Source: Chthoniobacteraceae bacterium (lineage in GTDB: Bacteria; Verrucomicrobiota; Verrucomicrobiia; Chthoniobacterales; Chthoniobacteraceae). Taken from it: a stretch of DNA of 64,000 bases. The notes under the pieces are model-generated. The model ran no database searches. It had not been told where the DNA came from and saw only the letters and a program-made list of their open reading frames with translations. Below, in pieces: positions 7,470 to 25,081 of the stretch. Within the stretch, counting starts at the first letter, position 1. Each line of letters starts with the position of its first letter. A program made the translations under genes and the position numbers. The stretch covers positions 62,001 through 126,000 of the forward strand of contig JAQGOL010000033.1 in the NCBI GenBank assembly GCA_028293625.1, read 5' to 3'.

Positions 7470-7622
7470 TCAGATTGAGTTAAGGAACGCAATCAACTGC
7501 GTGCGCTGCGCCGGGGTGAGGCGCTGGTAGCGGTCCACGTGCATTTGTGACAAACGATGGAGCCCGAGCGCTTCCTGCTTCAGTGGATCCGCGCCAATGC
7601 ATGCGATAAAACGCTCTCTTAC
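7470..7622 (-). pseudogene. Probable gene remnant: C-terminus resembling a cytochrome c protein
   Basis: Directly downstream of the lamin-tail gene, a different minus-strand frame encodes 50 residues ending in DRYQRLTPAQRTQLIAFLNSI and TGA at 7470-7472. The ending LTPAQRTQLIAFLNSI strongly resembles the last helix of di-heme peroxidases and cytochrome c domains. No heme motif or plausible start is present in this frame; the only ATG leaves 24 codons. I read it as the surviving tail of a lost gene, possibly displaced when the lamin-tail gene arrived. It could also be a real micropeptide or chance. Confidence 0.35.
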
Positions 7623-10600
7623 CTTGAATCGACGCGCAGCCGGACAAAGAGGCGCGGCTGCGCGGCTGCCGGGGCGAGCAGGCGATGGGTCTCATTGAGC
7701 AGGCCCCCGGTCTGAACCCGCGTTAAGAGCTCAGTCGGGGCCGTGGTCCAGGTGATGAAATCGGTCGATGATTCAATCACGCAAGCAACGTCATCGGCCG
7801 TGGCGCGGCGGCTGAAGCTCAGGCGGCGATCCGCGCCGGTGGAGACGACTGTCAATGCGCCCGGACCGGATGCGGTGTCGGAGCTGCCAAGGGCGTATTC
7901 GAGAAATGCGTTCAGGCCATCGTTATCGGCATCGATGCCGGGGAGTCCGGCAAACACCGTGGAATCGCCCGCGCCGGGATTGCCGCCCAGCGCCAGGCTG
8001 GCGCGCCAATTGGAAGGGGAACTACGATCGAGGGAGAGCTGTGGCGCGATTGGAATGAGGCTGTAACCGCCGCCGTCGGCGCCGGTCGGCCATGGGGCGG
8101 CATGATCAAAGTTGAACGCTTGAATGGGCGCCCCCGTGGCATCGACAAGGGTGATCAGTTCGCCGTTATTGCTAAGCGCATCAGCCGGTCCGTATGCCCC
8201 GGCGATCCGCGGCGCCGTGCCGTATCGGGCCTGAAAGGCGGCGATATTGCGCACCAATAGAATGCGTTCGCCGGCCGCGAGCACCGTGTCCGCGGGGAAC
8301 GTGAAATCGATTCCATCGATAAAAGCGCAGCCGCCGATGTTGAGGTTGTCGGAGGCTAGGTTGCGCAACTCGATAAACTCAAAGTCGTCCCTGTCCGTGC
8401 TGACATTGAGCTCGGCGCCAACCGGGCCGGCCGGTTTGTAATGCAACTCGGTGATGCGTAAAAAATCGCGCGCGATCGGCGAAGGGAGTGTGCTCGTGAT
8501 CGTGATGCTTTTCGCCCCAACGAGCTGGCCTTGAAAATCGTAAGCCTGGAGCGTGATCGGGTTCTCTCCAAAATTCAGCGCCACGGTGAGACGCCAGGTC
8601 GATTGGGTGGTCCAGGTGGCGGGAACAACCGCTCCGGTATCGGCGCGGCGGAACTCGCGGATATTGATCCAGCCGGTGCCATCGAGGGCGATGGTGGAAT
8701 TGGCCACCGAAAATGGCGCGCCGTTGTTGGTGGTGATGGCGAAGGCGGTTTGCGCCGGCAACTGCGAGAGCACCGAATTGCGCCTGGCCTCGATGTAGCC
8801 GGACTGTGCGCTCATATTCTGGCCCACCACCGAGCCGTAATGGGTCATCCACGGCGTCATGTAAGCGCTTGAGAAGGTGGTCTGGCAGAGGTCATACAAA
8901 TGCCCGTAGTAAAGCCGCTTGTTGGCCGGGATCTCGATGACACGCCGCAGATTTTTGGTCGCCAAAATGGCGGAGGAACCCGCGGTGGCGTTGAATACAA
9001 AGTCCATGTCCCAGGGCAACGCACTGACGTTTTGGCCATCGCTTGGAACGTGCACCCGGAAGTTGTGCGAAAAGCCGCCGTTCATATAGCAGTCGGCGAT
9101 GCCGCAAAGTGAATAGAGCGCGGCGCAACGCATCCATTCATCGACATCCATCCGTGCGCCGATCTGCTGGGCGAGCTGCGCATCGGGCAATGCCATGGTC
9201 TGGCAAAATGCAATCAGCCCGGTGAAATCGTCGTTTCGCCGGCCGGCACGCGGCTCAAGCGGTGCCCGGTATTGTTCTTTATCGGCGCCGAGACTGGTAA
9301 AATCGGTGTCGAACTGCGTGGCGAGCGGCACCGGGTTTTTGAAGCTTTCCACATTCCCGTTGGTGGTTGTGGCCGGCTCATAGGTGCCGTCGAGACTGTA
9401 GACGGAGCCGTCTCCATCAAACTGCGAATCAACGAAGGTCTGTTCGTATCCGGCCATCTGCAAAATCGCGGTGCCCGTGTGGACAGCAGCCGGGGCGACA
9501 AAATAACAAAGGTCATCGTAGCTGCACGGCACACCGGCACGATGGAACATGTGTTTGACGTAGATCTCGTCCTGGCCGCGCACGACCGGTCCCCGACCTG
9601 AGCGATCGATATTGACGCTGTCATGCACGCCGCGGAAAAGGTGGTCGGCCGGAAAACCGACGTCGTAGCCGGTGTATTGTTCGCCATCGCGAATCCGTCC
9701 CGCTGCCGTCCCCTGCAACCGGATGCCGGCGTCGTAAAAGATCTCGCTGCGCCGATAAATGGCGGTGCCGGGAATGCGCGCATCGCTGACCCGATTGAGC
9801 GGGGCGAGGAGTGCCGCGCTATCGGCCGGAAGCATAATGACGCGCAGTTCGTGGGCGGCGAGCGTGCTCCCCTGGCCATCGTTGACGATAAAAAGGGCGC
9901 GCGAATTGGGACCGGCCGCCGGCAATTGCGAAGAGGCGCCCGCTCCATCCAATGCCTCAACGTAAAACTGCACGATGGCTCCCGCGCTTTGGCCCGGGAC
10001 GCTGGCTGTGTAAAGGCCGCTGGATTGTAGTGTCATCGGCGCCGTGGCAAAGGTCGTGCCGCCATTGACCGCGTAACGCAGGGTAACAGTGGCTACATTG
10101 TCCGGATCGGCGGCCCGCACACTGACTGTCACGGCCTCGCCCGCGGCCGGCAGGACCGGTGCGTGTGCCAGGCCGCTCATTGTCGGACCGAGATTGGAAA
10201 CAAATCGCGAGTTCTGCGTGCCGGGAGTGCCGATCCGCGTGGGAAGCGCGAGCTCGGTTGTCCTGGCAAGCCGCGAGTAATAGGCGCGCGTGTTGAGCTG
10301 GTTGCTGCCCGAGATCCAGCGGGCACGGAAAGTGACTTCGTAAACCTGGCCGTCGACCAGAGCAATGTTGTTCAGGAACGTGCTTTCGATGTGGTTGTGG
10401 TTATAGCCGAACTGACCCGTTGCCCGCACATGCAGCACGTGGTTGGAATTGTCGGCCGGATCGGTCTCAATCGCGCTCGTCCCGTGGTTGCCCACCATCC
10501 GCCATTTATTGGTGAGCGACTCGAAGTTGCCGCCCTGGATCAGCTCCTGCCGCAGGCCTGCCGGGTCGCGCACGACACTCACGTCATCGATCAGGCATTC

Positions 10601-13165
10601 GCCGTTGCTGAGCATCCCGATCCGGAACTCGTTCCAGAGGGTCTGGCCATACGTTTGCCCCGATGTCATCCGGTAAGTCACGGTCTGCCAGCCGGGAGCG
10701 GTTGCACTCCCCGCGCCCCATGCGGCGCCATTGGCATTGTCGGCACGCGGATCGCGCAGCTCAAGCGACGCGCCATTTCCATCGGCCAACGAGGGCCAGG
10801 CGCCCCCATTTGAATAAAGCACTTCATTAGCCGGATTGCCGCGCGCGTCTTTCAGCACAATGCGCTCGCCTTTGTTGGAAAAGGAGCCGCTGAAGTTGCC
10901 GATGATTTTCGCGGCCACTTCCGGCCATTTGCCTGCCAGAGCCGTGGCATCGCGCGCGATCACGAGAAAGTCGCCGGCTCCAATCTGCGTATTAAGAGGA
11001 ATGGTGAATTCGATGGCGGTATCGAGCTGCCAGCCGCCGACATTGATCGGCGCCGCGGTGCGGTTGTGCAGCTCAATCCATTCCTCGGGATTCGACGTCA
11101 CGGGGAGTGCGCCGGAGCTCGAGTTTGGCGGAAAATGATACATGACCTCGTTGATCACGATGCCGGTCTCGAAGGTGAAGGCATTCTCCGCGCCGAAGCT
11201 TGCCGCCGTGGGAGAAAGAAACTCCGGGCCGCTGCGGGCGCGCACCGTTGTGCGGACAACGGCCGCGTCAAAAAGAAGGGTGCGCGATGGATTATAAAGA
11301 AAAATGCGATCGCCTGACAACGGCCGGAATCCGAGTTGCGTCTGGTCAAGCACGAGCAATCCGCCGGGCGCGAGTGGTTGGGAGGGAAGGACGTAACCGG
11401 TGGGCGCGTTGGAGGAGGCGATCACGAGGCCGCCCGGATCGACGGTGCCCGTGCCGTTGTTGCGCAGTTCAATTCTCCAGACGGCATCGGTACTGCCGGC
11501 GATTTCATTGATGCCAATTTGCGCGACCCCGTTTGTGGAGAGGATCTCGCGGGAGACCAGCTGCGCGCCAAAAACGGCATCCCGTTCCGGGGCCGGCAGC
11601 GCGTTCGCATAAAGCTCGAGTTCATCCACGCACGAGCCGTCACCAATGCCGTTGCCTGGACAAATTAGCCGGATACCGGTGGCGCTGACCGGTGTGAAGT
11701 TGAAGCGATGCCGGAGGGAAGGCGCTGAGAAAAGCGGGCCGGTTTGAGCGCCGTAATTGATGCTCCCGACTGTCGTCCAGGCCGAATCCGGGGTTGATGC
11801 GGAAGGGTTTGGAGTGGTGGTGTATTGGACCGTGTAAGTGCCAAGGGTGCGATCGGCATAACCGCCTGAGTTGTCGCGGCCCCAGGCGATGCTCTGCACG
11901 GTTTTCGGCGTGGCGCCAAGATTGATGGCGCAATACGAGTTGAAGGAATTGCCAATCCACGAGTTGGAATTGCCGTAAACCCCGTCGTTGATGTGCGGAA
12001 TATTATGGATGGTCGGGTAACCGGCGAGGACATCTTTTGCGAACGCCACCGCTCCGGCGCCGCGTGCAAGATTGTTGGCGGTCTCCAGTGTTCCAGCCTG
12101 CTCAACCACAGCGAGCGGACCGCCACCTCCGGTTTCAGGCGCCTGATGCAATTCGACCGAAAGCACGTTGGTGCCGGCAACCAGGCGATTGCCTGGCAGG
12201 GTTAATGGGGATGAGACGACGGCATTGTCGATAGCGTTCACCGCGCGCGTGGTTCCGCTGACGGCGCCGGCCGCCATATTGATGCGCGCCACTTCAAAGC
12301 CGTTCAGGAAAACGATCGCGCCGTCGTCGAGCAATGTGGTGAGCTGCACCGCGGTTTGCGCCGGATCGCCCGAAAAATTAAACGAGCGCTGAAAGTAATG
12401 CGTGATCACGCCGGCGCCGGGGTCATTCAACACCGTCCCGACCGGCAACGGCGGCGGGGTGGTTTTAAAGGCAAACAGACCCGGCCCGGATTGCCAGCCG
12501 TCCGTATCGGCTGCATACACGGTTTGCGCCCAGTTGGCGGGACGGCCCGTGCCCGATTGATTAAAAGTCCACGCATCGCCGAATGCGGCCAGGGTCACCG
12601 CAGGGCCGAGCGCCTGTCCGTTCGGAAAATTTTCCGCGCCGGGAGTCCCTTTGATCTGCGGGCTGTAAGTCCAGTTTTCCGCCCGGGCGCTGGAGAGGCC
12701 CGGTGCGCGTTTCACCAGGGAGACACCGCCGGCATCGGCGGCAACGGGGAATTGCCCGGAATCCTGGTAACTGAAGACGTCCATCTCACGCCCGATCCGG
12801 TTGCGGAGAGTGACAGAGTCGCCGCTATTGGCGAGGGCACCGCTCCATGGGCCCAGCACGCCGGTGATGCCGGCGCTGTTTTGCAATGCGGCCGGGTTCG
12901 ATGCGATCACCAGGAAGCCACCCGCCGGGATTGTGGTTCCGGCTGGAAATGTGAATCCGATGCCGCCGGTGATCTGCCATCCGGAGAGATCCATGTTCAC
13001 CGCCATCTCGTTGTGAAGCTCGATCCATTCGGCATCCGCCGCGCCGGGCGGATGATACATCACCTCGTTGAAAACGGTGGTCGCATCAATCGCGCGGGCC
13101 ATGGAGCCGCCGGCCGCGATGACTGCCAGAAGCGGCGCTAACGCGCGAAAAAATGCAGGGCGCAT
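7619..13165 (-). CDS. Exported lamin-tail / discoidin-like / CotH-type surface protein
   Basis: Protein of 1848 residues with a signal peptide (1-25, ending MARAIDA). Four lamin-tail-like domains are visible: about 30-175 (VFNEVMYHPPGAADAEWIEL), 540-655, 660-820 (IVINEVMYHFPPN) and 1525-1690 (RITELHYKP). Between them lie jelly-roll segments (about 190-345 and 830-960), a discoidin-like module (about 365-525, with PHINDGVYGNSNSWIG) and a CotH-kinase-like region (about 1090-1420, with LPWDMDF). A thrombospondin-type calcium loop (DADNDGLNAFLEYALG) is near the C-terminus. CotH-like proteins phosphorylate or bind partner proteins; here an extracellular structural or adhesive role is inferred. It lies 6 bases behind the PEP-CTERM gene, so the two are probably cotranscribed. 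No PEP-CTERM signal is present on this one. Confidence 0.85.
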   Translation of the reverse strand: MRPAFFRALAPLLAVIAAGGSMARAIDATTVFNEVMYHPPGAADAEWIELHNEMAVNMDLSGWQITGGIGFTFPAGTTIPAGGFLVIASNPAALQNSAGITGVLGPWSGALANSGDSVTLRNRIGREMDVFSYQDSGQFPVAADAGGVSLVKRAPGLSSARAENWTYSPQIKGTPGAENFPNGQALGPAVTLAAFGDAWTFNQSGTGRPANWAQTVYAADTDGWQSGPGLFAFKTTPPPLPVGTVLNDPGAGVITHYFQRSFNFSGDPAQTAVQLTTLLDDGAIVFLNGFEVARINMAAGAVSGTTRAVNAIDNAVVSSPLTLPGNRLVAGTNVLSVELHQAPETGGGGPLAVVEQAGTLETANNLARGAGAVAFAKDVLAGYPTIHNIPHINDGVYGNSNSWIGNSFNSYCAINLGATPKTVQSIAWGRDNSGGYADRTLGTYTVQYTTTPNPSASTPDSAWTTVGSINYGAQTGPLFSAPSLRHRFNFTPVSATGIRLICPGNGIGDGSCVDELELYANALPAPERDAVFGAQLVSREILSTNGVAQIGINEIAGSTDAVWRIELRNNGTGTVDPGGLVIASSNAPTGYVLPSQPLAPGGLLVLDQTQLGFRPLSGDRIFLYNPSRTLLFDAAVVRTTVRARSGPEFLSPTAASFGAENAFTFETGIVINEVMYHFPPNSSSGALPVTSNPEEWIELHNRTAAPINVGGWQLDTAIEFTIPLNTQIGAGDFLVIARDATALAGKWPEVAAKIIGNFSGSFSNKGERIVLKDARGNPANEVLYSNGGAWPSLADGNGASLELRDPRADNANGAAWGAGSATAPGWQTVTYRMTSGQTYGQTLWNEFRIGMLSNGECLIDDVSVVRDPAGLRQELIQGGNFESLTNKWRMVGNHGTSAIETDPADNSNHVLHVRATGQFGYNHNHIESTFLNNIALVDGQVYEVTFRARWISGSNQLNTRAYYSRLARTTELALPTRIGTPGTQNSRFVSNLGPTMSGLAHAPVLPAAGEAVTVSVRAADPDNVATVTLRYAVNGGTTFATAPMTLQSSGLYTASVPGQSAGAIVQFYVEALDGAGASSQLPAAGPNSRALFIVNDGQGSTLAAHELRVIMLPADSAALLAPLNRVSDARIPGTAIYRRSEIFYDAGIRLQGTAAGRIRDGEQYTGYDVGFPADHLFRGVHDSVNIDRSGRGPVVRGQDEIYVKHMFHRAGVPCSYDDLCYFVAPAAVHTGTAILQMAGYEQTFVDSQFDGDGSVYSLDGTYEPATTTNGNVESFKNPVPLATQFDTDFTSLGADKEQYRAPLEPRAGRRNDDFTGLIAFCQTMALPDAQLAQQIGARMDVDEWMRCAALYSLCGIADCYMNGGFSHNFRVHVPSDGQNVSALPWDMDFVFNATAGSSAILATKNLRRVIEIPANKRLYYGHLYDLCQTTFSSAYMTPWMTHYGSVVGQNMSAQSGYIEARRNSVLSQLPAQTAFAITTNNGAPFSVANSTIALDGTGWINIREFRRADTGAVVPATWTTQSTWRLTVALNFGENPITLQAYDFQGQLVGAKSITITSTLPSPIARDFLRITELHYKPAGPVGAELNVSTDRDDFEFIELRNLASDNLNIGGCAFIDGIDFTFPADTVLAAGERILLVRNIAAFQARYGTAPRIAGAYGPADALSNNGELITLVDATGAPIQAFNFDHAAPWPTGADGGGYSLIPIAPQLSLDRSSPSNWRASLALGGNPGAGDSTVFAGLPGIDADNDGLNAFLEYALGSSDTASGPGALTVVSTGADRRLSFSRRATADDVACVIESSTDFITWTTAPTELLTRVQTGGLLNETHRLLAPAAAQPRLFVRLRVDSR

Positions 13166-13171
13166 TGCGGC

Positions 13172-14365
13172 CTATTTTTTTGAACGCCGCCGAATGGCAA
13201 GGGCCGCCGCGCCCGTTAGCATCAGCAATGCGCTGCCCGGTTCCGGAACGGAGGAATAAACTTCCAGCTCGTCGATGGCGGCGGCATTGGGGGCGCCGTC
13301 GGGAGCGCCCGCCCCAATGATTCGCAACGCGGTCGCACCGGCCACGGGAGCAAATGAATACTCGTGGCGCAGGGCGCGATCGGGATCAGCCGGATCGAGA
13401 TAAACCGGCCCGATATTGGTCCAGCTGGCGTCGGGTGTGGTATTATCGGCGCCGGCGGCCGTCGTATACTGGACCAGGTAATATCCCGCCGCGCGATCCG
13501 TATAGAACGGCGAGTTGTCACGTCCAAAGGCCACACGATCAATGGTGGTTGGGGCGGAGAATCGGACACCGGCGAATGAATCGAGCGAATTGCCGATCCA
13601 CGAGTTCGCGTTGCCGTAAATCCCGTCATTGATGTGTGGAATGGAATGGGCGTCGTAGCCGGTCAGCACATCCTTGGCAAACGCGACGCCTCCCAACGCG
13701 ATATTGCCGGCGTGCATCGTTCCGCCGACGGTTTGAAGAGTAAACGGAGCCGCCGCAAACGGGGCGACTTCAAACTCGTCAACGTCGGTGCCATCGGCAA
13801 AACTGCTGCCCGGCGCGATAAGCCGGACACCGGTGGCGAGCACGGGAGCAAAATTCCACGCATGCCGCCGGCTCGTGGAGAGGATTCCGGCGTCGCCGCC
13901 CGCGTGGTTGATCGTGCCAATGGTTGTCCAGAGCGCGTCGGAGGTCGCGGCGTTCGGATTCGGCGCAAGCGTATATTGAAGGGTGTAAAGGCCCGCTGTC
14001 CGATCGGAAAATACTCCTGTGTTATCGCGTCCGAATGCGAAGCGTCCAATAGAGACGGGCGTGGGGCCAAGGCTGATCCCAATATAGGAATTGGCTGAAT
14101 CGCCAATCCACGAATTCCCATTCCCATAAATGCCGTCCCGAATATTCGCGATCTTGTGCTGGGGAAGGCCGCCGCCGCCGATCTCATCCCTGCCGAACGC
14201 CGAGGAGCTGGCCAGTGTGGAAAGATTGTTTAGAAAGGGACCACCGTTAAGTTCAGTGATCGTAAACTGTGCGCGTGCCGTGGCGGCACAAAAAAAGGCA
14301 AGGAGGAGGGGAGAAGTCTTCAAGGGATTCGGGGGGTCGATTTCCTGTCGCGAGCCGGCGTCCAT
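13172..14365 (-). CDS. PEP-CTERM surface protein with two discoidin-like modules
   Basis: Protein of 397 residues. The C-terminal tail VPEPGSALLMLTGAAALA followed by IRRRSKK is a textbook PEP-CTERM sorting signal: PEP motif, hydrophobic helix, basic end. It implies processing by an exosortase, which is not in this window. The body holds two copies of one module (about 70-210 and 225-370), each with HINDGIYGN/RDGIYGN, NSWIG and FGRDN motifs. Related modules occur in the neighbouring lamin-tail protein, kinase and PSD1 protein. The ATG at 14365 is the longest start; a TTG at 14323 would give a cleaner signal peptide (KTSPLLLAFFCAATARAQF). It is divergent from the sensor kinase with a palindromic site between them, and leads the lamin-tail gene. 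Confidence 0.85.
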   Translation of the reverse strand: MDAGSRQEIDPPNPLKTSPLLLAFFCAATARAQFTITELNGGPFLNNLSTLASSSAFGRDEIGGGGLPQHKIANIRDGIYGNGNSWIGDSANSYIGISLGPTPVSIGRFAFGRDNTGVFSDRTAGLYTLQYTLAPNPNAATSDALWTTIGTINHAGGDAGILSTSRRHAWNFAPVLATGVRLIAPGSSFADGTDVDEFEVAPFAAAPFTLQTVGGTMHAGNIALGGVAFAKDVLTGYDAHSIPHINDGIYGNANSWIGNSLDSFAGVRFSAPTTIDRVAFGRDNSPFYTDRAAGYYLVQYTTAAGADNTTPDASWTNIGPVYLDPADPDRALRHEYSFAPVAGATALRIIGAGAPDGAPNAAAIDELEVYSSVPEPGSALLMLTGAAALAIRRRSKK

Positions 14366-14412: not shown

Positions 14413-14435
14413 GGAATCCCCCAAACGGGGGAGCC
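14413..14435 (-). promoter_or_regulatory. Putative operator palindrome, copy 1
   Basis: On the minus strand this reads GGCTCCCCCGTTTGGGGGAT, containing the palindrome TCCCCC-GTTT-GGGGGA (14417-14432). It lies in the 116-base gap between the divergent PEP-CTERM gene and sensor kinase, 46-47 bases from either annotated start. A close copy in the same orientation relative to its gene precedes the PSD1 gene at 18725. Since it precedes a gene in both cases, a binding site is more likely than a terminator. Binding by the response regulator encoded at 18014 is an inference. Confidence 0.5.
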
Positions 14436-14481
14436 TGCCGAAAACTCGCCAAAGCCGGCCAGATCCGGCACGCTCCAAGGC

Positions 14482-17400
14482 GTGCTTTTCCTCCCCCCAT
14501 TCCGCGCCGTGATTGGCTGCCTGCTGTCGATGGCGGCGGTTGCGCAGGAGCTGTCGCCGACGCGCGAGCCGGTGCATCCGCGGCGCAATGTGGAGGAGTT
14601 CACGCCGGTGGAAGCGAAATGGGTCCGTTTCACCATCCTTAAAACCAATGGGCTGGAGCCGTGCCTGGATGAGCTGGAAATCTACGGCCCCGATGCGCCT
14701 TCAAAGAATCTCGCCCTGGCGGAAACCGGGACCCGCGTTCGCGCCTCGGGAACCTTGCCTGAATACCGCATCCACGCCCTGCCGCACGTCAATGACGGGC
14801 TTTATGGAAACGGGCACAGCTGGATTTCGGACACGCCGCGGACCGGCTGGGTGGAGTTCGAATTGCCCGCCGTCACGCGCATCAGCCGTGTAGTCTGGAG
14901 CCGTGACCGGGAAGGCAAATTCATCGATCGCCTCGCCACTGAATACCGGATCGAGGCGGCACGCGAATCGAGCGGCCTGCCGGAGGACTGGCACCCGCTG
15001 GCTTCCTCGGCTGATCGCGCCCCGTTGGCGGGCATCGCCGATGCGAACCCGGTCTCGCGCGGTTTGCTTGGACGTTTCTCTCCCTCGGCAACCGAGCTGC
15101 CCGGCCGCAGCCGAAGCGCCGGCCGTGAATATGTCCTGGCCACATGGCAGACTGCGGAGGGATTGCCCGCCAACACCGTCACCGCGCTTGCCCAGACCCG
15201 TGACGGCTGGCTTTGGATCGGCACCACCAATGGGCTGGCCCGGTTTGACGGCGTGCGGTTCACCGCTTTTGGGGAAAGCCATGGGCTGCCTGCGCTGAGC
15301 ATCTCATGCCTGCTGGAGGAAAACGACGGCACGTTTTGGGTTGGCACCGCGGGAGGCGGTTTGGCGCGGTGGGAGAACGGCCATTTCAGCACCGTTACCC
15401 TCGGTGAAAATCTCGCCGACAACACGGTGCTGACCATGACCCAGGGACTCGATGGCGCCCTCTGGATCGGGACCGTCAGCGGCCTTTTTGAATATAGGGA
15501 CAGACACTTGATCCGCCATGTCGAAGCCACCGTCTCGCGGCTCGTGGCAACCCCCTCGGGGATCTGGTTCATTTTCGGCGGCCAGCTCGGCCGCTGGAAT
15601 AACGGCTCGCTGATGCAACCCGATCCCGCCCTTGAACCATCCCGATTTTCCTCCCTGGGCGCATTGGCTGGCGGACCCGGCGGCAGCCTTTGGTTTGGCG
15701 GCGCAAACGGTTACGCGGGCCGTCTGGCAGATGGCGCCGTGACCACGTTCGGCGAAGGAAGCGCGTCGCTGGCTTCGAGTTTATGGGAAATCCTGCCGGC
15801 CCGAACCGGCGACGTCTGGCTGGGAACCTCCGCCAGCGGCCTGGCCCGATTGCGCGACGGAAAATTACTCGCGTTGACGACAGAGGATGGACTCCCTTCC
15901 AACAGCGTTCGCGCCGTTTGCGAAGATCGCGAGGGCAACCTCTGGGTTGGAACAGCAGGCGGCGGGCTTACCCGGCTGCGTCCGCGCCAGGTGACGGCAT
16001 TGACCACGGGTGACGGCCTTTCCCACAACGTTATCATGGCCCTCGCCGAGGATGCCCATGGCACGATTTGGATCGGGACAAATGGCGGCGGGCTCAACCG
16101 CTGGCAGGGCGGCCGGCTGGAACCGCATGCGCCGACTTATTTGCTCGAAAATGAAGTGATTTCCTCCCTGGCCGCGACTTGTGACGGGGCGCTTTGGCTC
16201 GGGACCTGGGGCAGCGGATTGTTCCGGGTCGCTTCGGGAAAAGTCGTGCGTTTCCAATCCTCCGACGGGTTGCCCGGGCGCGATGTCTCCGCGCTTTGCG
16301 AAGATCCCGCGGATGGCCTTTGGGTTGGCACACTCGATGGGGGTCCCGCCTATTTTTCAAACGACGAGATCACTTATCCCGCGGGCATCGCACCGCTTGC
16401 CGGCCAGCCGATTACCGCGATTGTGACCGATCACGCCGGGCGCGTCTGGTTCGGGACAGCCGGGCAGGGGGTGGCTTGCCTGGAAAACGGCAGGCTGATG
16501 CGCTGGAAACGGGCGGATGGTCTTGCCAGCGATTTTGTCCGCACGCTGCGCGAGGATTCCACGGGCACACTTTGGGCCGGCACAAGCGGCGGCCTGACCC
16601 GTTGGGTTCAAGGAAAGCCCGAGAGTTTTACCGTGCGCCACGGCCTGCCCGATGCCGTTGTTTCGCAAATCATGGATGACGGCCACGGGCATCTTTGGGT
16701 GGGGACCAATCGAGGTATCCTGCGCATCCCGCTGCATTCATTCGATAACGCCGGGCAACCGCTTGAAGTGCTTACTCTCGGCGCCCGCGATGGGTTGCCC
16801 AGTTTGGAATGCACCGGCGGTTTCCATCCATCGGGATTGCGCACTCGCGATGGCCGGCTCTGCTTCGGCACGGTAGGCGGGCTGGCTCTGCTCGATCCGG
16901 TTTTATTCAATGCCGCATCCACGCCGCCGCCGGTTCTGATTGAAGAAATAGGGATCGGTTCAGCCGCGCCATCTCTGGTTGGGCCGGCTCCGGTGATTGT
17001 GCCGGCCAATACCGGGCGCGTTGATTTCCGGTTTACCGCCCTCAGTTTCACGGCGCCTGAACGGACCCGGTTTCGCTATATGTTGCACGGATTGGAGCCG
17101 GCCTGGATCGACGCGGGCTCGCAACGCACCGCCAGTTACACCCATCTGCCTCCGGGCCACTACCACTTCCGCGTTCTTGCCAGCCTGGACGGCGGCACCT
17201 GGAGCGATGCCGGCGCCGTGGTCGCGCTGCAGGTCCTTGCGCCCTGGTGGCAAAAGCCGTGGCCGGAGGCAATCGGCGCGCTGGCAGGCGTGATCGGTGT
17301 GGCGGGAGTGGCCCGGTTTTTGACGCGGCGCCGGTTGCAGCGCCGTCTTCTGCTTGTTGAACAACAATTTGCCCTTGAACGCGAACGTTCGCGGATTGCT

Positions 17401-17979
17401 CGCGACATTCACGATGATCTCGGCGCGAACCTGACCCAGATCTCCATGCTCAGCGCGCTCGGTTGTGAACAGCGCGATAAACCGGCGCTCGTCGAGGAGC
17501 ATTTCAACGCCATCGCCGCCACCGCCGGGGACCTCGTGCAGGCGATGGATGCCATTGTTTGGGCCGTCAATCCGCGGCATAACACCCTTGAAAGTCTGGC
17601 CCGTTACATTACCCGGTTCGCGGAGGATTTTTTCACCCACACCCCGGTCCGGCTCCGGCTGGATGTCCCGATGCAGCTTCCCGAGGCGGCGCTCCGTTCT
17701 GAAGTGCGGCACAACCTTTTTCTTGCGGCAAAAGAAGCGCTTAATAACGCGCTTCGTCACGCCGCGCCGACCGAGGTCCGCCTTCGTCTTGCAGTCGAGG
17801 GCGGCCAGCTCATCCTTCATGTGGAGGATAATGGACGCGGTTTTCTTCCCGGTACCGAGGATTCCGATGGAAATGGATTGGGCAACCTGCGGCGGCGCCT
17901 GGCGGAATGCGCCGGGACTTGCGAAATTGTGAGCGCGCCCGGACAAGGAACGCGCATTCTCTTCTCCATCCCGCTCTAA
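14482..17979 (+). CDS. Giant sensor histidine kinase: discoidin-like, regulator propeller, Y_Y_Y, HisKA_3
   Basis: Protein of 1165 residues. A GTG start and signal-like helix (residues 9-22) lead to a discoidin-like module (46-184) with LEPCLDELEIYG, PHVNDGLYGN and WSRDREGKFIDR. Residues about 215-840 form two beta-propellers of repeated 'two-component regulator propeller' units (WLWIGTTNGLARFDG, WVGTAGGGLARW and similar). A Y_Y_Y domain follows (about 845-920), then one transmembrane helix (about 928-948). The cytoplasmic end has HisKA_3 (RSRIARDIHDDLGANL, His977) and an intact HATPase_c (EALNNALRHA, DNGRGF, GLGNLRRR). Such kinases sense polysaccharides or related ligands in the periplasm. 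Its response regulator lies 34 bases downstream. The extra N-terminal module closely resembles an insertion in the PSD1 protein at 18780. Confidence 0.92.
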   Translation: MLFLPPFRAVIGCLLSMAAVAQELSPTREPVHPRRNVEEFTPVEAKWVRFTILKTNGLEPCLDELEIYGPDAPSKNLALAETGTRVRASGTLPEYRIHALPHVNDGLYGNGHSWISDTPRTGWVEFELPAVTRISRVVWSRDREGKFIDRLATEYRIEAARESSGLPEDWHPLASSADRAPLAGIADANPVSRGLLGRFSPSATELPGRSRSAGREYVLATWQTAEGLPANTVTALAQTRDGWLWIGTTNGLARFDGVRFTAFGESHGLPALSISCLLEENDGTFWVGTAGGGLARWENGHFSTVTLGENLADNTVLTMTQGLDGALWIGTVSGLFEYRDRHLIRHVEATVSRLVATPSGIWFIFGGQLGRWNNGSLMQPDPALEPSRFSSLGALAGGPGGSLWFGGANGYAGRLADGAVTTFGEGSASLASSLWEILPARTGDVWLGTSASGLARLRDGKLLALTTEDGLPSNSVRAVCEDREGNLWVGTAGGGLTRLRPRQVTALTTGDGLSHNVIMALAEDAHGTIWIGTNGGGLNRWQGGRLEPHAPTYLLENEVISSLAATCDGALWLGTWGSGLFRVASGKVVRFQSSDGLPGRDVSALCEDPADGLWVGTLDGGPAYFSNDEITYPAGIAPLAGQPITAIVTDHAGRVWFGTAGQGVACLENGRLMRWKRADGLASDFVRTLREDSTGTLWAGTSGGLTRWVQGKPESFTVRHGLPDAVVSQIMDDGHGHLWVGTNRGILRIPLHSFDNAGQPLEVLTLGARDGLPSLECTGGFHPSGLRTRDGRLCFGTVGGLALLDPVLFNAASTPPPVLIEEIGIGSAAPSLVGPAPVIVPANTGRVDFRFTALSFTAPERTRFRYMLHGLEPAWIDAGSQRTASYTHLPPGHYHFRVLASLDGGTWSDAGAVVALQVLAPWWQKPWPEAIGALAGVIGVAGVARFLTRRRLQRRLLLVEQQFALERERSRIARDIHDDLGANLTQISMLSALGCEQRDKPALVEEHFNAIAATAGDLVQAMDAIVWAVNPRHNTLESLARYITRFAEDFFTHTPVRLRLDVPMQLPEAALRSEVRHNLFLAAKEALNNALRHAAPTEVRLRLAVEGGQLILHVEDNGRGFLPGTEDSDGNGLGNLRRRLAECAGTCEIVSAPGQGTRILFSIPL

Positions 17980-18013
17980 GGATGCCAAAGCAGGAAGCTT
18001 CACCCTGATCTTT

Positions 18014-18643
18014 ATGACTCAACCGATCCGCGTTGCCTTGGTGGAAGATAATCCGTTGCTTCGGCGCCAGCTCGCGCAGTTGCTTCAAAATGCGCCGGGA
18101 TTCCATTGCGCGGGCGTCTTTGCCGACGCCGAGACGGCACTCGCCACGCTTCCATCCCATCCGCCCGATGTTGTCCTGATGGACATTCAGCTCCCGCAAA
18201 TGTCCGGGGTCGAATGCGTGGCCCGGCTTAAAGCGGCGCTTCCAACGGTCAATGTGCTGATTCTCACTGTGTATGACGATAGCGAGAGCATCTTTCAGGC
18301 ACTCGAAAATGGCGCGAACGGTTATTTATTAAAACGGACGCCGCCCGCCGAACTCCTCACCGCCATCGAGGATGTGCAGCGCGGAGGCGCCCCGATGAGC
18401 GGGCATATCGCGCGCCTGGTGGTGCAATCCTTTCATCGGCGCGGCCCGTCGCCGCGTTCCTCGGAAAACCTGACTCCCCGCGAGGAGGAAGTGCTGCGGC
18501 TGGTGGCGCAGGGGTTTATCAACAAAGAGATTGCGGAGCGCCTGACCGTGGGGGTTGAAACCGTGCGCCAGCATCTAAAGAACATCTACGCCAAACTCCA
18601 TGTGAAAGGCCGCACGGAAGCAGCCATGAAGTTCTTCGGATAA
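18014..18643 (+). CDS. NarL/LuxR-family response regulator
   Basis: Protein of 209 residues. A receiver domain (1-120) has acidic pocket ED at residues 11-12, phosphoacceptor Asp57 in VVLMDIQLP, and the conserved Lys in YLLKR. A LuxR-type helix-turn-helix fills 150-207 (LTPREEEVLRLVAQGF, NKEIAERL, VRQHLKNIYAKL). It follows the kinase by 34 bases and is almost certainly its partner, since HisKA_3 kinases pair with NarL-type regulators. Likely targets are the flanking surface-protein genes, which carry matching palindromes, but this is inferred from position only. Confidence 0.93.
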   Translation: MTQPIRVALVEDNPLLRRQLAQLLQNAPGFHCAGVFADAETALATLPSHPPDVVLMDIQLPQMSGVECVARLKAALPTVNVLILTVYDDSESIFQALENGANGYLLKRTPPAELLTAIEDVQRGGAPMSGHIARLVVQSFHRRGPSPRSSENLTPREEEVLRLVAQGFINKEIAERLTVGVETVRQHLKNIYAKLHVKGRTEAAMKFFG

Positions 18644-18724
18644 GGATGTCCGTGGCTTGCCGTTGGAACGCCTGTGCTACTTGGCAATAACAGCATGAGG
18701 CTTCCTCCTTCTTAGGCCCCGCGC

Positions 18725-18745
18725 GGCTCCCCCGTTCGGGGAATA
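18725..18745 (+). promoter_or_regulatory. Putative operator palindrome, copy 2 (alternatively a terminator)
   Basis: The sequence GGCTCCCCCGTTCGGGGAAT is identical to the minus-strand reading of the 14413-14435 site over its first 12 bases and keeps the GGGG arm. It ends 34 bases before the GTG start of the PSD1 gene and 102 bases after the response regulator ends its frame. A run of five T bases follows shortly (18747-18751), so it could instead terminate the regulator transcript. The matching copy upstream of a divergent promoter favours an operator. Confidence 0.45.
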
Positions 18746-18779: not shown

Positions 18780-21608
18780 GTGTTTCCCCTCTCGTTGCGG
18801 CTTTCCACTCTTATCAGCGTAATGCTGACCTCGCGTGCGTTGTGCGTCCCGGCGGCCGATGCCGTCTCACTGCCTGCGGCGGCTTCCCATGCCGTCGATT
18901 TTGAAAAGGAGGTGCGCCCTATTTTTGAAGCCAAATGCGTGAAATGCCATGGAGAGGAAAAGCAAAAGGGTGGGTTCCGTGTCGACCTGAAGCGTTCAGT
19001 GCTCACCGGGGGCGACAATTACGCGCCGAATGTTCTCCCCGGAAAAAGCGCCGACAGCCCGCTGATCCGGTTTGTGGCGGGACTGGATGCGGACATGAAG
19101 ATGCCAAGCAAAGGCGACCCGCTTACCAGCGAACAGATCGGTATCCTGCGCGCCTGGATTGATCAGGGGGCCGCGTGGCCGGAGACAGGCGGGGTTGTGG
19201 AAAAAAAGCATTGGTCTTTCCAGCCGTTAAAACGCCCCGAAGTGCCGCGGATCGAAGGCGTGGCTGGCAATCCCATTGATCTGTTTATCCTGGCGAAACT
19301 CGCCGAAAAAGGCCTCGCCCCGTCGCCTGAAGCCGATCCGCGCACCCTTTGCCGGCGTCTTTATTTTGATGTCACCGGCCTGCCACCGACGCCCGAGGAG
19401 CTTGAAGCGTTCCTTGCCGAATCGAGCCGCGACCCGCAATCGGCCATCCGCAATCTGGTGGATCAGCTTTTGGCTTCTCCCCGGTATGGCGAACGGTGGG
19501 CGCGGCATTGGCTCGATGTCGTCCGCTTTGCCGAGAGCGATGGATTTGAAACCAATCAGCCGCGTCCCAATGCCTGGCCTTACCGCGATTACGTCATTCG
19601 CGCCTTTAATGAGGACAAACCGTTTGATCAGTTTATCCGCGAGCAACTGGCCGGCGATGCGTTCGGTGTGGATCAGGCCACCGGTTTCCTGGTGGGCGGC
19701 CCGAATGATCGCGTTAAAAGCCCCGACCCGGTTCTCACCGCCCAGCAGCGCGCCGATGAATTGCATGACATTGTCGGCACCACCGCGAGCGCCTTCCTGG
19801 GACTGACCGTCAATTGCGCGCGCTGCCACAATCACAAGTTCGATCCGATCCCGCAGACCGACTATTACGCGATCAAAGCGTGTTTCGCCGGGGTGCAGCA
19901 TGGCGAGCGTCCAATGAAGACGCCCGATTCTGAAAAGCGCCGGCTGAAAGCGGAGGCGTTGCGTCCGCGCCTGGCTGAACTGGAAACGGCGCTTGAGCAA
20001 TTTACCCCGCTCGCCTCAACCGCTCCCGATGCACCCCGGCGGCTTGGTCTGAATTTCCGGCGCAACTCCGATCGTTTTGCACCGGTGCTCGCGAAGAAGC
20101 TGCGGTTCACCATCGAAAAAACCACCGGAGCCGAACCGTGCATTGATGAGCTCGAAGTCTGGAGCGCCGCTCCGCAGCCGCGCAATGTGGCGCTCGCGAG
20201 TGCCGGCACGAAGCTGGCCTCCTCGGGCGATTATCCGGGTGATGCAAAACATCAACTCGCCCATCTTGTGGATGGCAAATACGGGAACGATTGGAGCTGG
20301 ATCTCAAACACCGCGGGCCGCGGCTGGGTCGAGATCGAATTCGCGCATCCGGAAAACATTGAGCGCATCGTCTGGGGCCGGGACCGTGAATCAAAATACA
20401 AGGACCGGCTCGCCATTGGCTACAAGGTGGAAATCAGCGGAGAAGATGGCGCATGGAGCATGGTGGCGGGATCGGCCGATCGCGCCGCTTTTAATCCCGA
20501 TGCGCAAGCGGGAGCCGACTGGGATTCCCCTGCCTTAAACGCCGCGCAGCGTGCCGAGGCGGCAAAGCTTGACCAGGAACGGCGCGCCATCGTCCAGGAA
20601 CTGGCGGTCTCAATGGCTGAGCAAACTGTTTACGCCGGCCGCTTCGAAAAAGCGCCGCCGACTTACCGCCTCTCGCGTGGTGAACCGATGCAGCCGCGCG
20701 AGATCATCGCGCCGGGCGGACTCAGCGAATTTGGCGGTGCCTGGCGGCTGGCTCCCGATGCGCCCGAACAGGAGCGCAGGCTCGCATTGGCCAAATGGAT
20801 CGCTTCCCCGGAAAATCCGCTCACGGCCCGCGTGATCGTGAACCGGCTATGGCATTATCATTTCGGGACGGGCCTCGTGGAAACTCCCAGCGACCTTGGC
20901 ATCAATGGGGGGCGTCCCTCGCATCCCGAGCTTCTCGACTGGCTTGCTTCCGAGTTCCTGGCGCGCGGCTGGCGGATCAAGGAGCTCCAGCGGCTCATTC
21001 TTCTTTCCTCCACGTATCGCCAGGCCAGCACGCTTAATCCCGAGGCGATGCGTGTCGATGCGGGCGCCCGGCTTCTCTGGCGTTTTCCTCCGCGCCGGCT
21101 TGAAGCGGAAGGATTGCGCGACAGCATCCTCGCGGCCAGCGGCGGACTTGATCTGCGCGCCGGCGGTCCCGGATTTGATCTGTTTGAAACCAACACCAAC
21201 TACGTCAAAGTCTACGCGACCAAGACCAGGTTCAGCGGAGACGACTTCCGCCGCATGGTTTACCAGAACAAACCAAGGGTGGAACTCGACACACTGTTTG
21301 GCGCGTTTGATTGCCCCGATGCCGGCCAGATTGCACCGCGCCGCACCAGTTCCACCACGCCGCTGCAGGCATTGAACCTTCTCAACAGCGAGTTCCTGAT
21401 TGATCAGGCGGGCGCATTTGCCCAACGGCTTCAACGCGATGCCGGCCCCGATCCCGCCAGCCAGGTGAAACGCGCCTTCAGCCTCGCCTTCGGCCGCGGG
21501 CCGGTCCCGGAGGAAACTGAGGCCGCCACCCGGCTGATTGCCACCCATGGGCTGCCGGTTTTTTGCCGCGCGCTCTATAACGCCAACGAGTTCCTCACCG
21601 TTTTTTGA
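18780..21608 (+). CDS. PSCyt1/PSCyt2/PSD1 exported cytochrome c protein with discoidin-like insertion
   Basis: Protein of 942 residues; GTG start with AAGGAA 11 bases upstream and a signal peptide. A PSCyt1 cytochrome domain has CVKCH at residues 53-57. PSCyt2 (DUF1549) spans about 155-365 and includes ERWARHWLDVVRFAES and CARCHNHKFDPI. Residues about 430-580 are a discoidin-like module (EPCIDELEVW, LVDGKYGNDWSWIS, WGRDRESKYKDR) inserted before PSD1 (DUF1553, about 640-935; LTARVIVNRLWHYHFG, RRTSSTTPLQALNLLN). These proteins are abundant in planctomycetes and verrucomicrobia, usually beside DUF1501 genes as here, and are thought to act in glycan degradation or surface electron transfer; the reaction is unknown. 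The module is shared with the upstream kinase, unlike the PSD1 protein at 45277. Confidence 0.92.
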   Translation: MFPLSLRLSTLISVMLTSRALCVPAADAVSLPAAASHAVDFEKEVRPIFEAKCVKCHGEEKQKGGFRVDLKRSVLTGGDNYAPNVLPGKSADSPLIRFVAGLDADMKMPSKGDPLTSEQIGILRAWIDQGAAWPETGGVVEKKHWSFQPLKRPEVPRIEGVAGNPIDLFILAKLAEKGLAPSPEADPRTLCRRLYFDVTGLPPTPEELEAFLAESSRDPQSAIRNLVDQLLASPRYGERWARHWLDVVRFAESDGFETNQPRPNAWPYRDYVIRAFNEDKPFDQFIREQLAGDAFGVDQATGFLVGGPNDRVKSPDPVLTAQQRADELHDIVGTTASAFLGLTVNCARCHNHKFDPIPQTDYYAIKACFAGVQHGERPMKTPDSEKRRLKAEALRPRLAELETALEQFTPLASTAPDAPRRLGLNFRRNSDRFAPVLAKKLRFTIEKTTGAEPCIDELEVWSAAPQPRNVALASAGTKLASSGDYPGDAKHQLAHLVDGKYGNDWSWISNTAGRGWVEIEFAHPENIERIVWGRDRESKYKDRLAIGYKVEISGEDGAWSMVAGSADRAAFNPDAQAGADWDSPALNAAQRAEAAKLDQERRAIVQELAVSMAEQTVYAGRFEKAPPTYRLSRGEPMQPREIIAPGGLSEFGGAWRLAPDAPEQERRLALAKWIASPENPLTARVIVNRLWHYHFGTGLVETPSDLGINGGRPSHPELLDWLASEFLARGWRIKELQRLILLSSTYRQASTLNPEAMRVDAGARLLWRFPPRRLEAEGLRDSILAASGGLDLRAGGPGFDLFETNTNYVKVYATKTRFSGDDFRRMVYQNKPRVELDTLFGAFDCPDAGQIAPRRTSSTTPLQALNLLNSEFLIDQAGAFAQRLQRDAGPDPASQVKRAFSLAFGRGPVPEETEAATRLIATHGLPVFCRALYNANEFLTVF

Positions 21609-21611
21609 AGT

Positions 21612-23084
21612 ATGTATCAACCCGATCTTTCCCATGCCGGCCGCGCCCTCCTCAGCCGACGTGATTTCCTGCGCTGGGGCGGCACCGGCCTGGGCGGCAT
21701 TGCGCTTGCGACGCTTCTTTCCGAGCAGCGCTTGCTGGCGGGAGAACCGATCCGGCCCGTATTCGATCCGGCCCGGCCTTACGCACCGCGTCCGCCGCAC
21801 TTTGAGCCGAAGGCAAAACGCGTGCTGATGATCTTCTGTTCGGGCGCGCTCAGCCACGTCGACACCTTTGATTACAAACCCGAACTGATCAAACGCCATG
21901 ACACGCCGATGCCCGGCACTGGTCTGATCACATTCCAGGGCGAGAACGGGAACCTGATCAAACCGCTCTGGGAATTCCGGCCCCGGGGACAATCCGGGAA
22001 GATGATCAGCGATCTGCTGCCCAACCTCGCGGGAATGGCCGATGACATGTGTTTCATCCATTCGATGACCGCGAAGTCCAATACGCATGGCCCCGCCGAG
22101 AACCAGATGAGCACCGGGTTCACCCTTGATGGATTTCCCGGCATCGGTTCATGGGCCACCTACGCTCTTGGAAGTGAATGCGCCGATCTGCCCGCGTTTG
22201 TCGCGATTCCCGATCCGCGCGGCGTGCCGCAAGTCGGGAGCCGTCATTGGTCCTCGGCGTTTCTGCCCGCGGTTTTTCAGGGAACGCCTTTCAACGCGGA
22301 CAAACCGATCGCCAATCTGGTGCGTCCGGCTTCCATCACCGAGGCGGCGGAAGGTTCCACGCGCGATTTTCTCAAACTGCTCAATGACCGGCATCTTGCC
22401 GAGCATCCTGGCGACACCGATCTGGCCGCCCGCATTGCCGCCTACGAGCTCGCCGCGAAGATGCAGCTTGCCGCCGCCGAGGTGAGCGATTTTTCCCATG
22501 AATCGCAATCGACACTCGACGCATACGGAGCGAGCGACTCAAACAAAACCAAGGCCGGGTTCGCACGCAACTGCATCCTGGCGAGACGTTTGCTTGAACG
22601 CGGAGTCCGTTTTGTGCAGCTCTTCAATGGCGCTTATGCCATGGGCGAAGGCGTCGGCAACTGGGACGGCCATAAAACGCTCAAGGATCAATACGACAAG
22701 CACGCCCCTGTTCTCGACCAGCCGGCTGCCGCCTTGCTGAAGGACTTAAAACAACGCGGACTTCTTGACGATACGCTCGTTGTTTTCGTTACCGAATTCG
22801 GCCGGATGCCGACTTTCCAGAAGGGCGCCAATGGCCGCGATCATAACCCGAAAGGTTTTACCTGCTGGCTGGCCGGGGCCGGTGTAAAGCACGGGTTCAG
22901 TTACGGAGCCACCGATGAGTTCGGCTATCAGGCGGTGGAAGATGTCACGAGCATCTACGATCTTCATGCGACGATCCTGCATCTGCTCGGACTCGATCAC
23001 GAGCGCCTCAGTTTTTACAACAACGGCATCGAGCGCCGGCTCACCGACGTGCACGGCCATCTGCTTAAACCGATTCTGGCGTAG
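21612..23084 (+). CDS. DUF1501 exported protein (Tat signal)
   Basis: Protein of 490 residues starting 3 bases after the PSD1 stop, so cotranscribed. The N-terminus has a twin-arginine motif ([12 protein letters not shown]), indicating export of a folded protein. The rest matches DUF1501, a sulfatase/alkaline-phosphatase-fold family, with [58 protein letters not shown] and [17 protein letters not shown]. These conserved Asp/His/Thr positions suggest a metal-dependent hydrolase, perhaps a sulfatase, but no activity is established for the family. It is a partner of the preceding PSD1 protein; the same pairing recurs at 43.8-48 kb. Confidence 0.93.
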
Positions 23085-24070: not shown

Positions 24071-25081
24071 TCACCTCTTGATCTCCTTAAGGCCGCAAAG
24101 CACTTCACGAAAAGAAGTCGGCGAGCGGCCGGCGATCCGGTGGAACATCCGGTTGAAGTGCGTAATGGAAGAAAAGCCCGCTTCAAATGCAATCTCCGAG
24201 ATACGAAGCTGCGGGTTGGCCAGCAGCTTCTTGGCTTTCGCCACGCGCACCAGCGAGAGGTATTCGGTAAAGGTCAACCCGGTCGCGCGCTTGAACATCT
24301 TGCAGAAATGGAACGTGCTCACATGGACGGCCTGGGCGACTTCCTTCAGGGAAAGCTCTTCGCCCTGGCGTTCTTCAATCAAGGCACGGGCGCGCTGGAT
24401 CATCGGCGGCTCGGCGTTTGTTTGCTGAGTGGCGATCTGTTCGGCGGCCAGGGAGAGATGCTGCGCGAAGACTTCCAGCATCCGCAGCACAGCCTCATAC
24501 TGTTGCCGGGTGACGACGCGCGTTTTAAAGTAAGACTCTTCAAGCAGCTTCAAGTCGGTTTCCACACCGCCGCGCTGAAGCCATTCAACCACCCGCCGGA
24601 AGTCGTCATGCTTGAGCTTTTGCAACGCGATCTGGCCGGTTTGGAGAAAACCGAGCGTCACCTGGCCCACCCGCACAGGCACAGCTGAATCGGTAAGCCC
24701 CGCCATGCACGCCTCCGATTTTGTCTCGGCGTCATCGGTGCCGAGGCGTTCCTGCATTTCCACGCACATCCGGCAGCCGGGTTTGTTCTCGGCCATTTGA
24801 ATGCAAAAGGCGTTGGCGTTTTTGCTGCCGCGCATCCCGGGCCGCTTCTTTCCGGCGGGCACGAATTTCAAAGGCAGTCCCGTGGCTTCAGAAAAGGCGC
24901 GCTCGTAGTCGTGCACGATTTGCGACTGCAACAGTTTTTCAGAGAGGTGCGTAACGGCGGCGGCGCTCACTTCCGAAGTTTTATCCCCCGATTGGGTGGA
25001 GTGCAACACAACCAAGGGGGAGGCTTGCGCAAAGGCCGGTGAGTGGAACCCAGCGAATGAGCGCAAAGTCGCCGCGTTCAT
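24071..25081 (-). CDS. AraC-family regulator with PocR-type sensor domain
   Basis: Protein of 336 residues from the ATG at 25081; a longer frame to 25219 adds an Arg- and Pro-rich stretch I consider untranslated. Residues about 40-210 resemble a PocR ligand-binding domain, with four cysteines in FCIQMAENKPGCRMCVEM and EACMAGL that could bind metal or report redox state. The C-terminus (about 235-330) has two AraC helix-turn-helix units (SLKEVAQAVHVSTFHFCKMF and RISEIAFEAGFSSITHFNRM). It is divergent from the cbb3 oxidase operon with a 144-base gap, so it may control that operon or the DUF350 gene. The ligand is unknown. PocR itself responds to propanediol in enteric bacteria, but such domains are used widely. 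Confidence 0.85.
   Translation of the reverse strand: MNAATLRSFAGFHSPAFAQASPLVVLHSTQSGDKTSEVSAAAVTHLSEKLLQSQIVHDYERAFSEATGLPLKFVPAGKKRPGMRGSKNANAFCIQMAENKPGCRMCVEMQERLGTDDAETKSEACMAGLTDSAVPVRVGQVTLGFLQTGQIALQKLKHDDFRRVVEWLQRGGVETDLKLLEESYFKTRVVTRQQYEAVLRMLEVFAQHLSLAAEQIATQQTNAEPPMIQRARALIEERQGEELSLKEVAQAVHVSTFHFCKMFKRATGLTFTEYLSLVRVAKAKKLLANPQLRISEIAFEAGFSSITHFNRMFHRIAGRSPTSFREVLCGLKEIKR

Follow-up and report, generated by a model that had tools for sequence, protein, structure and literature searches.

In the hybrid two-component systems of Bacteroides polysaccharide loci, a sensor with Reg_prop and Y_Y_Y domains is encoded beside surface-protein genes. Two-component control of PEP-CTERM genes is known from PrsK/PrsR, in which PrsR is an NtrC-like regulator linked to sigma-54. 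For PSD1-system genes, our search of the open-licence literature found no paper on their control. NarL, the regulator of the Escherichia coli NarX/NarL pair, binds two 7-base elements that face each other in inverted orientation and are separated by 2 bp, and yeaR-yoaG is activated from one such 7-2-7 site placed immediately before the -35 element (PMC7419079). In Clostridium thermocellum, as described in PMC4711584, the anti-sigma/sigma pair RsgI/SigI has a sensor with an extracellular carbohydrate-binding module that controls the genes for module-bearing proteins.

The locus studied here lies in the window, a 64-kb stretch of DNA that was analysed as a whole. The original prediction for this window was that two matching palindromes, each facing a surface-protein operon, are binding sites of a response regulator encoded between them and define a local regulon. 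The genes concerned are the following.

7619..13165, minus strand: lamin-tail/CotH protein, proposed target, with one copy of the kinase N-terminal domain.
13172..14365, minus strand: PEP-CTERM protein, proposed target, with two copies of the kinase N-terminal domain.
14482..17979, plus strand: sensor histidine kinase with a CBM32-like domain, Reg_prop propeller, Y_Y_Y, HisKA_3 and HATPase_c; its start resembles a signal peptide by eye.
18014..18643, plus strand: NarL-type response regulator (Response_reg and GerE), the proposed operator binder.
18780..21608, plus strand: PSCyt1-PSCyt2-PSD1 protein, proposed target, with an inserted copy of the kinase N-terminal domain.
21612..23084, plus strand: DUF1501 protein, proposed target, assigned by domain scan.

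The kinase and the response regulator are thus encoded between the two palindrome copies, and each copy faces surface-protein genes, PEP-CTERM and lamin-tail/CotH on one side and PSCyt1-PSCyt2-PSD1 and DUF1501 on the other, as had been predicted. The lamin-tail/CotH gene probably forms one operon with the PEP-CTERM gene, and the DUF1501 gene probably forms one with the PSD1 gene. Family scores were above cut-off for both domains of the regulator (Response_reg, 96.7 bits; GerE, 64.8 bits) and for two families in the kinase (HisKA_3, 38.6 bits; HATPase_c, 44.6 bits). A hybrid two-component system was considered and rejected, since the kinase (14482-17979) and the regulator (18014-18643) are separate genes and not one polypeptide. 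Among solved structures, the closest relative of the regulator was NarL (E 4.6e-35, aligned over residues 3-205); a literature search for NarL contact residues yielded nothing usable.

Exactly two copies of GGCTCCCCCGTT were found in the 64-kb window, on the minus strand at 14424-14435 and on the plus strand at 18725-18736, and each was followed by a GGGG arm. The claim that the motif occurs nowhere else in the window held for exact copies; when up to two mismatches were allowed, the 12 window matches in all were at chance level (shuffle mean 8.8). Both palindromes fit TCCCCCG-WW-CGGGGGA, a 7-2-7 inverted repeat, and are given here as putative operators.

14417..14432, minus strand: putative Operator 1, TCCCCCGTTTGGGGGA, between the divergent PEP-CTERM and kinase genes; the PEP-CTERM reading frame begins 51 bp downstream of it.
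18728..18743, plus strand: putative Operator 2, TCCCCCGTTCGGGGAA, in the gap that separates the response regulator gene from PSD1; the PSD1 reading frame begins 36 bp downstream of it.

A test that was blind to the motif recovered two 7-2-7 palindromes, one per intergenic region, that were alike at 14 of 16 positions, and none of 5,000 dinucleotide shuffles reached even 12. When the whole window was searched in one strand register for matches of at least 13/16 to the 16-mer TCCCCCGWWCGGGGGA, one extra match was found, with a score of 13, at 24984, inside a predicted reading frame. Across the 6.83-Mb genome, the 17-mer GGCTCCCCCGTTNGGGG occurred only at the two window sites, and its reversed control did not occur (0 matches). 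The pattern CTCCCCCGTTYGGGG with up to two mismatches had 15 matches in the same genome versus 16 for the control, which indicates that there is no genome-wide set of sites. The search for a genome-wide regulon was thus negative in the genome of the window, where weaker matches were at chance level.

We then compared the locus with related genomes. The orthologue set was defined from protein search alone as kinases carrying the N-terminal domain described below, and it comprised 13 genomes: the window's own (G000), G021, G028, G061 (locus L033), G062 (L034), G677, G678, G608, G538, G556, G694, G544, and G563. The search rows G493, G437, G383, and G265 were taken as the same contigs as in G061, G062, G694, and G538, because their contig numbers, lengths, and positions agree. 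The kinase reading frame was split or held an in-frame TGA at L117:8253-12123 (G677) and at G493:C79:32123-35647 (the same locus as L033), which may reflect a frameshift, a genuine interruption of the gene, or a fault in the assembly.

Palindromes of the CCCCCGWWCGGGG type adjoined the locus in all four of the first relatives. When the strict pattern CCCCCGWWYGGGG was applied blind to new loci, it was present at three of eight orthologous loci versus none of 12 paralogous kinase loci that lack the domain; of the other five orthologous loci, one had a site with a single mismatch, two reached only 13/16, and two were truncated by contig ends. With TCCCCCGWWCGGGGGA at 13/16 or better, a consensus and threshold that were fixed only after the loci had been viewed, sites were found at all 11 orthologous loci with testable flanks versus none of the 12 paralogous loci (Fisher P 7e-7), and no score above 12 was obtained in the 204 kb of paralogous control loci. 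The sites in G028 and one in G021 lie inside an over-long reading frame according to the ORF caller, and those in G028 are upstream of the start of the kinase alignment. For the contig-truncated genomes G563 and G544, sites were found later by genome-wide pattern search on contigs with pieces of the locus: the G563 contig carries the kinase end and the regulator, followed by the site and then by a domain-bearing gene, and the G544 site precedes a PSCyt gene at the end of a contig that is taken to be the missing neighbour of the one with DUF1501 and the kinase. The palindrome thus follows the orthologous kinase/regulator pair and is absent from the paralogous kinase loci. The regulators of ten orthologous loci have ETV/IRxxLK in common in the region of the recognition helix, where the control regulators whose helix was displayed have other residues, with nearly all carrying R for the final K. 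A broader proposal, that every Reg_prop kinase locus has a palindrome pair of its own, was tried in a motif-free test and was not supported, because matching intergenic pairs were found at only three of six positive loci (and at none of 12 controls).

The distribution of the site over whole genomes was also determined. In the five genomes searched first, all 10 sites matching CCCCCGWWYGGGG genome-wide were at the locus, in each of the five. Among family genomes, the strict pattern TCCCCCGWWYGGGG occurred at the locus in all three that have the orthologue, whereas three of the 37 without it had one match each, all inside genes, so that no intergenic match was found in any of these 37. These results bear on the alternative that the palindromes are operators of a transcription factor other than the neighbouring regulator, through which these operons would be controlled. 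Such palindromes do suit other factor families as well, but the site accompanies the kinase/regulator orthologue across 13 genomes, is missing outside genes from the 37 family genomes that lack it, and has a 7-2-7 geometry that suits a NarL-type regulator, and we consider this alternative very unlikely.

The closest relatives of the window showed no random scatter of the motif, which would have spoken against the original prediction; in some larger or more distant genomes there were additional off-locus matches. In eight further genomes searched, off-locus strict matches numbered two in G694, one in G677, two in G538, and one of the two in G544, and G608 had seven strict matches, of which one was at the locus, another at a PSCyt gene, and five elsewhere; several of the off-locus matches sit inside reading frames. 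Two of the off-locus matches are strong palindromes in intergenic DNA, at L200:5031-5046 (G538:C3; 15/16) and L201:3038-3053 (G608:C42; 14/16), and the shared domain was not found near either of them.

The sites were upstream of their proposed targets. TCCCCCG-WW-CGGGGGA lies before target genes at the orthologous loci, at distances of 16 to 197 bp from the predicted reading frame downstream, and although gene order varies between loci, the sites remain upstream of these genes. Sites orthologous to Operator 1 were found in G021, G028, and G061. Counterparts of Operator 2 are upstream of PSCyt/PSD1 genes in G021, G061, G544, and G608, and in G062 and G677 the counterpart is upstream of a prepilin-like gene that leads into PSD1. 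There are three sites in G061, one before PSD1, which here is on the opposite side of the kinase, and one before each of two other genes. In G021 and G028, the divergent region also contains a degenerate second site.

This arrangement, together with the sequence that follows the sites, can be set against the reading that the palindromes are intrinsic terminators, with the 18728 copy ending the kinase/regulator transcript and the other copy being a chance hairpin. Both window copies do form a GC stem of 5 to 6 pairs with some T after it and appear in the list of a terminator scan, which overall found 22 candidates versus 17.4 expected. However, the first copy does not follow any gene on its strand, orthologous sites such as the three in G061 precede genes that are not located after the regulator, and in G021 and G028 sites lie between divergent genes. 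The T-rich stretch that was originally noted after the motif is present at the window copies but is not a general feature, being absent from most orthologous sites. Since the sites keep their place upstream of targets despite the changed gene order, a terminator of the regulator transcript is excluded, and a placement always downstream of genes was not seen in the closest genomes; we regard the terminator reading as a whole as exceedingly unlikely.

The promoter geometry of the sites was then considered. TAnnnT starts 22 to 23 nt past the 16-mer in seven of 19 sites, a count reached by one of 2,000 shuffles, with the reservation that sites of common descent are not independent of each other. 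Neither of the two sites in the window has TAnnnT at this distance. If TAnnnT is the -10 element, the site centre would be placed near -42, a position similar to that from which one NarL site activates yeaR (PMC7419079). A further single element, CCCCCGAAT or the complement of it, was noted as a direct repeat 9 bp from the palindrome at L034 3108-3131 and L044 663-690 (G062 and G021), an arrangement that might allow additional regulator units to bind next to each other.

The position of TAnnnT downstream of several sites would place these sites upstream of the transcript start, and it thus also argues against a structured RNA in the 5' leaders, a hairpin that would be read by a protein, an sRNA, or the ribosome. 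The palindrome is foldable and precedes reading frames by 16-197 nt, as such an element might. Nevertheless, when the inner five pairs were examined in 16 site variants, 11 of 80 cells were unpaired and there was no wobble or compensatory change. A change on both sides was found only at the outermost pair, in three sequences, and this pair alone raises the covariation score above that of most shuffles (four of 500 were as high). Rfam gave no match near the gathering score. Because the changes in the arms are mostly uncompensated, an RNA hairpin is disfavoured, and we judge it highly improbable.

Operators remain by far the best explanation of the palindromes. The co-occurrence of site and orthologue, the position of the sites upstream of targets, and their absence at paralogous loci all support the proposed local regulon, and we consider it very probable, as judged from sequence comparisons, that the palindromes are operators of the NarL-type regulator encoded between them, which would control a small, mostly local surface regulon. 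We infer binding by the regulator, activation, a ligand, and dependence on phosphorylation, with activation from about -42 being the more likely direction of control.

The kinase and the proposed targets were found to have a domain in common. Its kinase copy and the copy with which it was compared directly are at the following positions.

14554..15081, plus strand: kinase N-terminal CBM32/F5-8-type-C-like domain, assigned by AlphaFold2 model and VIA structure comparison.
20007..20519, plus strand: copy of the domain within the PSD1 protein, sharing 46% identity with that of the kinase over 164 residues (E 7e-37).

Kinase residues 25-188, from which this match was obtained, also have relatives in the PEP-CTERM protein, at two places, and in the lamin-tail protein, at one. 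A profile of the domain matched all 13 kinases and most of the genes that adjoin palindromes, including those for PSD1, PEP-CTERM, and lamin-tail proteins, a 372-residue protein of G061, and proteins of about 1160 to 1184 residues with about five copies, and it had no match at the 12 control loci. The G061 Laminin_G gene and the G538 DUF1501 gene have a site but no match to the profile.

An AlphaFold2 model of the kinase domain (pLDDT 86, pTM 0.83) best matched residues 638-779 of 6eon, the C-terminal domain of the galactanase BT0290, among the families covered by the VIA comparison (Z 14.9, rmsd 2.1 A, 131 residues). The next structural matches were to the CBM32 domains 2v5d (Z 7.5) and 4a42 (Z 7.2), which alone would be middling, and most Foldseek matches below the first were noise. 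The model thus gives the kinase N-terminus a CBM32/F5-8 type C fold. Pfam PF00754 scored 17.9 bits in the kinase, below the cut-off of 28.2, and 29.4 bits, above that cut-off, in the PSD1 relative of G677.

The domain is rare across eight whole genomes, and in the window's genome five of its six matches are at the locus. The sole copy elsewhere in that genome is in a lamin-tail protein at G000:C7:85794-86108 (L175) and has no operator upstream. The proposal that every domain-bearing gene has an operator was rejected, since nine of 11 off-locus domain regions lack an intergenic site of 13/16; the two with an intergenic site of at least 13/16 are PSCyt genes in G608 (14/16) and G694 (13/16), and a further 13/16 match, at L169:1972, falls some 480 bp upstream, within a different reading frame. 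In both G608 and G694, the PSCyt gene with the site is on a different contig from the kinase, and no PSD1 gene was present in the stretch covered around the kinase. Action at a distance is only suggested by this, because the PSCyt and kinase contigs could be neighbours in the genome.

The proteins in which the domain is repeated about five times in tandem (about 1160-1184 residues) are encoded at L117:12223-15774, L034:3226-6735, L122:1257-4751, and L119:11489-15025, and in the three of these four that were scanned there was no Pfam match. Prepilin-like genes with a FTLIELLVVIAII start adjoin the PSD1 or five-copy gene at L117:6543-7430, L034:11427-12347, and L122:406-1260, and in G677 and G062 such a gene directly follows the operator. 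The prepilin-like genes may belong to the regulon.

Taken together, these features suggest how the system could work. The membrane kinase would sense an extracytoplasmic ligand, perhaps a glycan, through its CBM32-like domain and propeller and would phosphorylate the response regulator, which would then bind TCCCCCG-WW-CGGGGGA as a NarL-like dimer and control the PEP-CTERM/lamin-tail and PSD1/DUF1501 operons, many of whose products bear the sensor's own domain. We tentatively propose, as a possibility somewhat short of an even chance, that sensor and effectors share a ligand-reading module, such that the kinase detects a galactan-like glycan and the regulator turns on, via the dedicated operator, surface proteins with one to five copies of the domain, including PSCyt/PSD1 proteins and their DUF1501 partners. 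If this is true, the PSD1 operon would be an inducible, glycan-directed machine, with its first named inducer module and operator. A carbohydrate-binding-like module common to a kinase and its targets would be new to specialists. With a putative operator, its probable regulator, and a domain that sensor and targets have in common, a direct test is possible: the ligand of the kinase domain, once found, would be a candidate for the substrate of the PSD1 system, and the structural likeness to a galactanase C-terminal domain points to a first class of ligands to try.

The locus resembles the Bacteroides hybrid systems in that a Reg_prop and Y_Y_Y sensor adjoins surface-protein genes, but here the kinase and regulator are separate and the output domain is of the NarL type, and a scan of six window proteins showed no SusC/SusD-like product. 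Like PrsK/PrsR, it is a proposed case of two-component control of PEP-CTERM proteins, with a regulator of the GerE type rather than an NtrC-like one. In architecture it resembles E. coli NarX/NarL through the separate kinase and the regulator composed of a receiver and a GerE output; it differs in its kinase, which has a propeller and CBM32-like sensor, in its GC-rich element CGGGGGA, and in its small regulon found mostly at one locus. The sites themselves are like those of NarL, which are inverted 7-bp elements 2 bp apart, with single 7-bp elements also occurring (PMC7419079). That one 7-2-7 site immediately before -35 can be enough for activation by NarL is counted as a further likeness. The nearest working parallel is RsgI/SigI, since in both systems a sensor with an extracellular carbohydrate-binding module, here CBM32-like, controls or would control genes for proteins bearing such modules. 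This parallel is built from different parts, with a kinase/regulator pair in place of the anti-sigma/sigma pair and with different module families (PMC4711584).
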